The notes under the pieces: generated by a model | The model's database searches: none | Seen by the model: only the letters and a program-made list of their open reading frames with translations | Told to the model about the DNA's origin: nothing | Made by a program: the position numbers and the translations under genes | In this document: positions 35,480 to 41,058 of the stretch, piece after piece | Numbering within the stretch: the stretch's first letter is position 1 | How the letters are laid out: each line of letters starts with the position of its first letter | From: an uncultured Pelagibacteraceae bacterium | GTDB lineage: Bacteria; Pseudomonadota; Alphaproteobacteria; Pelagibacterales; Pelagibacteraceae | Assembly: GCA_902522955.1 (NCBI GenBank) | Contig: CABYXR010000005.1 | Span: 1-52,011 of the forward strand | DNA: 52,011 nt | Direction of reading: 5' to 3'

Positions 35480-35556
<77 letters not shown>

Positions 35557-35561
35557 TTGAG

Positions 35562-35765
35562 TTATAATTTCTTTATATTTATAGCTTGGAGTTTATTTTT
35601 TTCTTCTTTTATATCGTATTTTAATTTTTGCTCTTCTTTTAATACTCTTAATTTCGAATTTTCTAACTCAGAAACGTGTAAAAATATATCTTTATTTGTT
35701 TCATCGTCAGTAATAAATCCATATCCTTTTTTTGAATTAAACCATTTTACTTTACCAGACGGCAT
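35562..35765 (-). CDS. Cold-shock domain protein
   Basis: A 67-residue CSD protein starting MPSGKVKWFNSKKGYGFI, with RNP1 (KGYGFI) and the RNP2-like DIFLHVSEL. It binds single-stranded nucleic acid and melts RNA structure. I prefer the ATG at 35765: six bases upstream lies AGAGGA (35772-35777), a good Shine-Dalgarno, and cold-shock proteins start just before GxVKWFN. A longer start at 35780 would place this site inside the gene. The C-terminal 15 residues (EEKNKLQAINIKKL) depart from the usual GPQAANV end. It follows rpsU by 23 bases and precedes the initiator tRNA by five. Confidence 0.88.
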   Translation of the reverse strand: MPSGKVKWFNSKKGYGFITDDETNKDIFLHVSELENSKLRVLKEEQKLKYDIKEEKNKLQAINIKKL

Positions 35766-35788
35766 TATTGTTCCTCTCATATTTATTA

Positions 35789-35983
35789 TTAGTACCTGTT
35801 CTTTAATTTTTGGAGTTTTTTAATTCTCTTAATGTTTTCAGTTTGAACTCTTTTTTTTCTTTCTGACGGTTTTTCATAAGTGCTTTTCATTTTCATTACT
35901 TTAAAAAAACCTTCTTTTTGAAGCTTTCTTTTTAAAACTCGTATAGCTTGCTCAACATTGTTATCTTTGACGTCTATTTTAAT
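35789..35983 (-). CDS. rpsU: 30S ribosomal protein S21 (bS21), apparent ATT start
   Basis: A 64-residue protein (first codon decoded as Met, then KIDVKDNNVEQAIRVLKRK and LQKEGFFKVMKMKSTYEKPSERKKR) that matches bS21, whose alphaproteobacterial form begins MQVxVRDNNVxQAL. In frame upstream of the first codon there is only GTT TTT, GAG, CAG and a stop TAA, with no ATG or TTG. A perfect AGGAGG (35989-35994) sits five bases before ATT at 35983, and the alignment places that ATT exactly at residue 1. bS21 helps mRNA binding at initiation on the 30S. AUU starts are known in infC, where IF3 discriminates against them. Likely co-transcribed with csp. Confidence 0.88.
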   Translation of the reverse strand: MKIDVKDNNVEQAIRVLKRKLQKEGFFKVMKMKSTYEKPSERKKRVQTENIKRIKKLQKLKNRY

Positions 35984-35988
35984 AAAAA

Positions 35989-35994
35989 CCTCCT
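35989..35994 (-). promoter_or_regulatory. Strong Shine-Dalgarno (AGGAGG) of rpsU
   Basis: The plus strand reads CCTCCT, giving AGGAGG on the minus strand, five bases from the ATT codon at 35983. Such perfect sites are rare in this window, and here the site decides the start codon: no canonical initiator lies at a suitable distance. Confidence 0.85.
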
Positions 35995-36033
35995 GTTAAT
36001 TTTTAGTTTGTTATCATTTGCCACATTAATTGT

Positions 36034-36618
36034 CTATACTGAAGCCGCTTGAGCTTTCTTTTCTTCTCTTATCTTAGCTTTTCTCTCCCTTTCGATTCTT
36101 CTTTTTGCTTTATCTAGACTTTTTTGAAATGCCTCTTGGGTGCATAGAGCTAAAATTACTGGATCTCTCGGTTTAAGATTAGAAAAATTCCAGTAACTTC
36201 TTTTTCTGATTAAAGAAACTGTTCCTTTTGTACTTCCAACTAATTTAGAAATTTGTCCATCGGTGAGTTCCGAAGCATTTTTACATAACCATAAGATAGC
36301 GTCAGGTCTATCTTGTCTTTTAGACAAAGGTGTATATTTTGGTTTTTTTCTCTCTTTAACTTCAACTTCATCTACTTTTTTTAATAAATTTAATTTTTTT
36401 TCAGGATTAGAAGAACACGTTTCTATTTCTTCTCTAGATAATTGTCCGGCCAATATAGGGTTATAAGCTTTAATTCCCTTTGCAACATCTCCATCAGCAA
36501 TACCTTTAACTTCAAGTTCGTGCAAATTACAAAATTCAGCTATTTGTTTAAACGTTAAAGTAGTATTTTCAACTAGCCAAACAGCAGTAGCTTTCGGCAT
36601 AAAGGGTGCTTCAGACAT
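36034..36618 (-). CDS. trcR: TrcR-like cell-cycle regulator (DUF1013)
   Basis: The 194-residue protein matches the alphaproteobacterial DUF1013 family from memory: PFMPKATAVWLVENTTLTFKQIAEFC, HELEVKGIADGDVAKGIKAYNPI at the start, then DRPDAILWLCKNASELTDGQISKLVGSTKGTVSLIRKRSYWN, a helix-turn-helix-like segment. In Rhodobacterales and Rhizobiales it is called transcriptional cell-cycle regulator TrcR. The C-terminus is basic and charged. It lies two bases after rpmE on the minus strand and 50 bases before rpsU. Confidence 0.85.
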   Translation of the reverse strand: MSEAPFMPKATAVWLVENTTLTFKQIAEFCNLHELEVKGIADGDVAKGIKAYNPILAGQLSREEIETCSSNPEKKLNLLKKVDEVEVKERKKPKYTPLSKRQDRPDAILWLCKNASELTDGQISKLVGSTKGTVSLIRKRSYWNFSNLKPRDPVILALCTQEAFQKSLDKAKRRIERERKAKIREEKKAQAASV

Positions 36619-39867: not shown

Positions 39868-41058
39868 TTATTTTAAAACATCAAGCCCGGGCAAGTCTTT
39901 TCCTTCAAGAAATTCTAAAAACGCGCCACCTGCTGTTGATAAGTGCGTAAAAACAAATTTATCTTTACTCTTATTAATAGCAGATATGGTATCTCCACCA
40001 CCTATTATTGATATAAGAGATTTTTTATTTGTGCTTTCAGAAATCTTATTAGCAATAGCCAGGGTTCCATGTGAGAAATTCTTATTTTCTATGTATCCTG
40101 CGGGCCCGTTCCACAAAACTGTTTTAGATTGATCTATAATACTATGAATATTTTTTATTGTTTTAGGTCCAATATCCAAGATCATTTCATCTTTATCAAT
40201 TGAGTCAGTTATTTTTATTTTTCCAGTACTTTTAAAATCATTTGAAACACTACAATCCTCAGGAATTAAGATATTACAGTTATATTTTTTAGCCTCAACA
40301 TATATCTGGCTGATTGTCTCTTTTGTTCCTTTTTCTATAAGAGATTTTCCAATGACAAAACCTTTAAAGATTAAAAAGTTATTAGCCATAGCTCCCACAA
40401 TAACAATGTTGTTTACGTTTTTAACTAAATTATTAATTACATTTATTTTTGTAGAAATTTTTGATCCTCCTATAATACAAGTTACTGGTTTTTTTTTATT
40501 TTTTATAATTGAATTTATCGCTTCAATTTCTTTTTTGAGTAATGGTCCGGCATAACACTCATTTATATATTTTGTAATTTTATGAATGGAAGCTTGCTTT
40601 CTGTGAGAACATGAAAAGGCGTCATTAATGTACATATCACCTATCGAAGCAAGTTTTTTTGCAAAATCATCATCATTTTTATTTTCTCCTTCAAAAAATC
40701 TTATGTTTTCTAATAAAATAATCTCACCTTCTTTAAGGTATGAAAATTTACTTTTTGTCTCCTCATTTATATCGCCCATATAGAAATAAACATTAGTTTT
40801 AAGATTTTCTTTTAAAAATTTGTAAATTGGAGTTAAAGAAAATTCATTACTCCTTTTTCCTTTTGGTCTACCTAAATGACTAATAATGATTATCTTAGCT
40901 TTTTTTCTTACTAAGTCTTTTAAAAAAGGTAGAGTTAATAATATTCTATTATAATCCTGAATTTTTTTTTCTTGTAGAGGAACATTTAAATCAAGTCTTA
41001 GAATTATTATTCTGTTCTGAACTTCTAGACTGTCAGAAAAATATTTTATTTTGTTCAT
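39868..41058 (-). CDS. pgk: Phosphoglycerate kinase
   Basis: A 396-residue two-domain kinase. Motifs are RIIILRLDLNVPLQ (substrate loop), ISHLGRPKGKR, LLENIRFFEGE, INDAFSCSHRKQASI, CIIGGSKISTKI and GPAGYIENKNFSHGT with the closing STAGGAFLEFLEG. It makes ATP from 1,3-bisphosphoglycerate. Its start overlaps the tkt stop by four bases. A gap gene, often between tkt and pgk in alphaproteobacteria, is not here. Confidence 0.97.
   Translation of the reverse strand: MNKIKYFSDSLEVQNRIIILRLDLNVPLQEKKIQDYNRILLTLPFLKDLVRKKAKIIIISHLGRPKGKRSNEFSLTPIYKFLKENLKTNVYFYMGDINEETKSKFSYLKEGEIILLENIRFFEGENKNDDDFAKKLASIGDMYINDAFSCSHRKQASIHKITKYINECYAGPLLKKEIEAINSIIKNKKKPVTCIIGGSKISTKINVINNLVKNVNNIVIVGAMANNFLIFKGFVIGKSLIEKGTKETISQIYVEAKKYNCNILIPEDCSVSNDFKSTGKIKITDSIDKDEMILDIGPKTIKNIHSIIDQSKTVLWNGPAGYIENKNFSHGTLAIANKISESTNKKSLISIIGGGDTISAINKSKDKFVFTHLSTAGGAFLEFLEGKDLPGLDVLK

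Follow-up and report, generated by a model that had tools for sequence, protein, structure and literature searches.

A near-cognate AUU codon behind a strong Shine-Dalgarno sequence as the probable start of rpsU in SAR11 bacteria

Bacteria are believed to use near-cognate start codons only very rarely, with two genes known in E. coli and a few in S. aureus. In E. coli, AUU is rejected by initiation factor IF3, which adjusts its own level by way of the AUU start of infC (PMC9410913). This system, present in E. coli and its relatives, is like rpsU of SAR11 in that AUU stands on a gene for translation initiation and is conserved over a large clade; infC, however, encodes IF3, whereas the SAR11 gene encodes bS21. 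The AUU of E. coli pcnB limits output (cited in PMC13009471 and PMC9410913), but it concerns a single gene, in contrast to a ribosomal gene throughout the SAR11 order. In S. aureus, genes with AUU or AUA starts need extended Shine-Dalgarno sequences (SDs) and yield approximately 10% of the AUG output in minimal medium (PMC13009471). Two of them, cvfC1 (AUU) and ccpN (AUA), share with SAR11 rpsU a conserved near-cognate codon behind a very strong SD, although they do not encode ribosomal proteins and their starts were mapped experimentally, whereas that of SAR11 rpsU is placed by comparison.

The closest case for the gene itself comes from Flavobacterium, in which ribosomes that lack bS21 show improved initiation on the rpsU mRNA with its strong SD (PMC9976891). 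The rpsU genes of Bacteroidota and of SAR11 have in common the gene, an outlier SD in an SD-poor setting and a short leader; they differ in phylum, in the near-cognate start, which is a SAR11 feature, and in sequestration of the anti-SD (ASD), for which SAR11 offers no evidence. The SD duplex is -11.5 kcal/mol at the SAR11 rpsU studied here versus < -13 kcal/mol given in that paper for Bacteroidota, values obtained by different methods. Near-cognate starts with strong SDs and bS21 autoregulation through the SD in Bacteroidota are therefore known already. A literature search, outside which lay most subscription papers and all preprints, returned no report of an AUU-starting rpsU or of class-wide avoidance of AUG in this gene.

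The rpsU start site in the window

The window, i.e., the whole 52,011-nt stretch of Pelagibacteraceae DNA that was analysed, carries rpsU on the minus strand, at the coordinates that the original prediction had given correctly. Read from position 36000 downward, this strand gives ATTAACAGGAGGTTTTTATTAAAATAGACGTC and, in a longer read-out of the rpsU region, ATTAACAGGAGGTTTTTATTAAAATAGACGTCAAAGATAACAATGTTGAG. The gene and its proposed start site comprise the following features:

35789..35983, minus strand: rpsU (bS21), 64 codons from AUU plus the stop; PF01165, E 1.9e-15; TIGR00030 above cutoff
35981..35983, minus strand: proposed ATT start codon of rpsU (near-cognate), placed by the reading frame; kept in 211 of 223 family genomes
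35989..35994, minus strand: AGGAGG Shine-Dalgarno of rpsU, separated from ATT by the 5-nt spacer TTTTT

It had been claimed that the first codon of rpsU is an ATT five bases past AGGAGG and that the frame upstream contains a stop and no canonical start. Both points are borne out by the minus-strand sequence, in which the bS21 profile matches and the codons leading to the start read TAA CAG GAG GTT TTT ATT. The open frame, QEVF-IKIDVKDNNVEQAIRVLKRKLQKEGFFKVMKMKSTYEKPSERKKRVQTENIKRIKKLQKLKNRY, begins after the TAA five codons before ATT and ends at the TAA stop (35791-35789); between the upstream stop and ATT, no canonical start is present. In the 0.92-Mb, 81% complete assembly, rpsU is the only S21 gene found.

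The SD of this gene is exceptional for its setting. Its predicted duplex (-11.5 kcal/mol, as given above) is the strongest among 54 window genes, for which the median is -0.9 and the next value -7.9; this comparison sets rpsU against 53 long ATG open reading frames of the window, with the first ATG taken in each, so that some starts may be wrong, and uses the standard 16S tail CACCUCCUUA rather than the assembly's own 16S. Within the window, the rpsU SD is consequently an outlier in an SD-poor background, as is expected of bS21/SD autoregulation of the Bacteroidota type. The bare AGGAGG hexamer is not rare (13 sites versus 9.6 expected), and none of its other copies in the window precedes a long frame with a canonical start. 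One copy on the minus strand (40466-40471) is followed seven bases downstream by an ATT that opens 196 in-frame codons; this may be an internal match inside a longer gene.

The first codon of rpsU in SAR11 and other Alphaproteobacteria

A key question is whether the ATT is a start codon or an ordinary isoleucine codon. To address it, we compared relatives in a sample of 297 genomes of the order, of which 223, representing seven genera of the window's own family, the Pelagibacteraceae (SAR11), have rpsU; many are single-cell genomes. Codon 1 is ATT in 211 of the 223 genomes, ATG in 8, ATC in 3 and ACG in 1, and the first 30 congeners listed all have ATT. Among 150 distinct rpsU sequences, it is ATT in 134, ATG in 8, ATC in 4, ATA in 3 and ACG in 1 (all start-codon counts were taken without correction for phylogeny). 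Conservation of ATT in other SAR11 rpsU genes, which the original prediction proposed as a check, is thus confirmed, and the conserved ATG in relatives that would have spoken against an ATT start is absent, with ATG in only 8 of the 223. The prediction had also foreseen the objection of a sequencing error. Although the window's assembly is fragmented and incomplete, an error of sequencing or assembly has a negligible probability and is already refuted by the relatives, since the same codon recurs in over 200 independent genomes, including many from single cells. At two loci (L149 and L150), the frame is interrupted within the gene while ATT and the SD are intact; these are possibly assembly errors or broken genes.

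The substitutes found at codon 1 are all one base away from AUG and include ACG, which does not encode isoleucine; the substitutions therefore favor a start over an isoleucine. The same reading follows from the upstream sequence: in 110 of the 142 distinct non-ATG sequences, no canonical start is present in the in-frame open stretch upstream, and in 24 more the sole canonical in-frame start is a TTG inside the SD. That the true start lies elsewhere, at such a TTG, at an upstream ATG or beyond a frameshift, with ATT as ordinary isoleucine, could draw on the TTG at codon -4 in these 24 family genes and on an upstream in-frame ATG in three. However, the 110 sequences offer no alternative at all, the TTG overlaps the SD, ACG and ATG replace ATT at the very same codon, and the upstream frame is not conserved and mostly runs into a stop; we consider this explanation highly improbable.

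The SD provides a further line of evidence. At least five SD bases are kept in 139 of the 142 distinct non-ATG sequences, and the other three read GGGGG, whereas the SD is missing in all eight ATG genes, which belong to one genus. This distribution again marks the codon as a start and indicates that the strong SD and the near-cognate start are coupled within the family. In trees of the region and of trcR, the eight ATG genes form a single group or a few adjacent ones, and they may represent only one or a few events; a single clean clade of ATG species was rejected because the two trees disagree on the placement.

Of the 40 rpsU genes read in the sister family (f2), 39 have ATA and one has ATC, behind AAGGAGG, and the next codon is GTT, GTC or GTA, with GTG in none of the 40. 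Beyond the order, the comparison covered 128 further genomes of Alphaproteobacteria, with most families represented by one. The SAR11 ATT aligns with the position of the GTG or ATG start in other alphaproteobacterial rpsU genes, which is another reason to read it as a start. The assigned starts in the 128 genomes were GTG in 59 (46%), ATG in 26 (20%), TTG in 20 (16%) and near-cognate codons in 23 (18%; ATC 11, ATA 5, CTG 5 and ATT 2), so that ATG is avoided in 102 of 128. In the near-cognate genes, the position that GTG occupies elsewhere is mostly GTT, GTC or GTA; the start is therefore either that codon or the preceding ATC, ATA or CTG, and is non-canonical either way. As a control, rpsO of Alphaproteobacteria has ATG in 28 of 28 readable cases, and rpsU outside this class has ATG in 23 of 24. 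Across the class, rpsU genes with a near-cognate start and those with ATG showed no difference in SD strength (Mann-Whitney p 0.52), and the coupling of SD and start is thus an observation at the family level only. The bS21 genes of pelagiphages start with ATG (HTVC008M, Kolga) or TTG (Mosig), and none has AUU; should the host exert control through the start codon, the phage copies would escape it.

Taken together, these comparisons make it almost certain that AUU, or one of its near-cognate substitutes, is the start of rpsU in SAR11. They show that selection keeps a near-cognate codon with a strong SD at this site, rather than isoleucine, and the proposal that near-cognate initiation is rescued by the strong SD is well supported at the sequence level.

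Probable promoter and gene neighbourhood

The region around rpsU contains the following further features, all on the same strand:

36034..36618, minus strand: trcR, upstream neighbour of rpsU; PF06242, E 5.7e-56
36031..36036, minus strand: TAGACA, probable -35 element of rpsU, whose TAG is also the trcR stop
36008..36016, minus strand: TGATAACAA, probable extended -10 element, by its conserved layout
35562..35766, minus strand: cold-shock domain protein, directly downstream of rpsU; PF00313, E 4.1e-24
35480..35556, minus strand: initiator tRNA-fMet, 77 nt, CAU, C1:A72 mismatch; ARAGORN, Rfam RF00005
33648..35477, minus strand: typA/bipA ribosome-associated GTPase, next gene; open reading frame with EF-Tu-like GTPase motifs, identified by reading the sequence

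The layout TAGACA-N17-TGnTA is present in 137 of the 150 distinct family sequences, and among the 138 that carry both elements the spacing is exactly 17 in 137. TAGACA overlaps the trcR stop in the window's genus and is kept also where it is not that stop, as in most loci of the ATG species. This arrangement is probably the rpsU promoter, which would place the transcript start near 36001 and give a leader of about 18-20 nt; a promoter consensus scan does not call the arrangement, and its -10 hexamer is poor. The leader is predicted to be unstructured (z -0.17) and matched no leader family in an Rfam search, and on these two grounds a structured autoregulatory leader was rejected. An upstream mini-ORF with reinitiation at AUU, considered for the TGnTAACTA motif, was also rejected because its frame is not conserved and an extended -10 element fits better.

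Downstream, the cold-shock gene starts with ATG at 35766, behind AGAGGA, or at 35780, and the stretch from rpsU to the typA start showed no terminator-like site. In the 166 Pelagibacteraceae loci fetched, an initiator tRNA gene follows rpsU on the same strand at a distance of no more than 600 bases, sometimes with an intervening cold-shock gene and sometimes without; a scan of four sister-family loci detected none next to rpsU. The anticodon stem of this tRNA is mostly TCAGG/CCTGA, in which one of the usual three G:C pairs is A:U, and is CAAGG/CCTTG in 11 of the 166 loci.

Possible control of bS21 synthesis at the start codon

How could such a start site act? The initiator tRNA would read the near-cognate codon (AUU here) as Met. 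Initiation at AUU would be intrinsically weak and would rely on the very strong SD on a short, unstructured leader, and bS21 synthesis could then track how permissive 30S initiation is. With 30S subunits in excess over IF3, or without bS21, when SD pairing would dominate, more initiation at AUU and more bS21 would be expected; with complete subunits and ample IF3, AUU would be rejected and bS21 synthesis would drop. The net effect would be to match bS21 to the 30S pool. We regard a sensing mechanism of some kind at the SAR11 rpsU start as slightly favored by the sequence data, with bS21 and IF3 as equal contenders for the sensor, between which we make no firm choice.

The original prediction had proposed an AUU start under IF3 control, modelled on infC, that would tie the S21 level to initiation capacity. 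Its near-cognate AUU and strong SD hold, but the parallel with infC is incomplete, since infC of the window's genus starts with GTG, overlapping the upstream stop, and not with AUU. An organism that depends on discrimination by IF3 would be expected to start infC at a discriminated codon, and this genus does not. In other Pelagibacteraceae, infC starts with GTG in genus g3, with ATG in genus g2 and perhaps with ATT or ATA in genus g4, and in the sister family it appears to start at ATA (AAGGAG-6 nt-ATA; AAGGAGATTAAAATAGCACTT). The gene was not found in the window's own MAG, at its 81% completeness. With its GTG in the genus and its absence from the MAG, infC itself gives no indication of IF3 sensing.

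The GTG of infC is one point in favor of autoregulation by bS21 alone, acting through the SD as in Flavobacterium, with AUU merely raising the dependence on the SD and IF3 not serving as the sensor; this is one of the two sensing routes contained in the preferred explanation. Another is the exceptional rpsU SD in an SD-poor window, which is the signature of Bacteroidota rpsU (PMC9976891). Against it, concealment of the anti-SD is not known from SAR11, and the passages found on Flavobacterium rpsU report no near-cognate start. We hold this restricted form to be possible but rather unlikely.

Similarly doubtful, in our assessment, is a constant throttle, in which AUU would only lower rpsU output to the level needed and nothing would be sensed, a mode suggested for E. 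coli pcnB. The rpsU sequence agrees with such a throttle no less than with feedback; in S. aureus reporters, output from near-cognate starts was about 10% of that from AUG (PMC13009471), and the eight species that exchanged AUU and SD for AUG without SD would hold output similarly low. Yet simpler routes to a low output are available, such as a weak SD with AUG, which only 8 of 223 genomes use; moreover, the pairing of the window's strongest SD with one of the weakest starts, kept across the order, would be odd for a mere throttle. That AUU or a closely related codon, behind an unusually strong SD, has been retained in almost the entire order suggests deliberate throttling or sensing of S21 production at this site.

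A more specific version of the sensing mechanism assigns the role of codon-discrimination sensor in SAR11 to rpsU instead of infC. Here, rpsU would belong to a conserved initiation-capacity cluster, rpsU-(cspA)-tRNA-fMet(-typA), with the initiator tRNA produced from the same transcript, and the output of bS21 would, through the AUU start, reflect the relative amounts of free 30S, IF3 and initiator tRNA. We offer this version as speculative, and its probability is low.

For genome annotation, pipelines restricted to ATG, GTG and TTG will misplace or miss rpsU in SAR11 genomes. The AUG species that have lost the SD constitute a natural experiment inside the Pelagibacteraceae. SAR11 are the most abundant marine bacteria, with small cells, and a ribosomal gene with a near-cognate start would extend across their entire order. 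Such use, order-wide in SAR11 and partly class-wide in the Alphaproteobacteria, would show start-codon discrimination to be a general control point for bS21.
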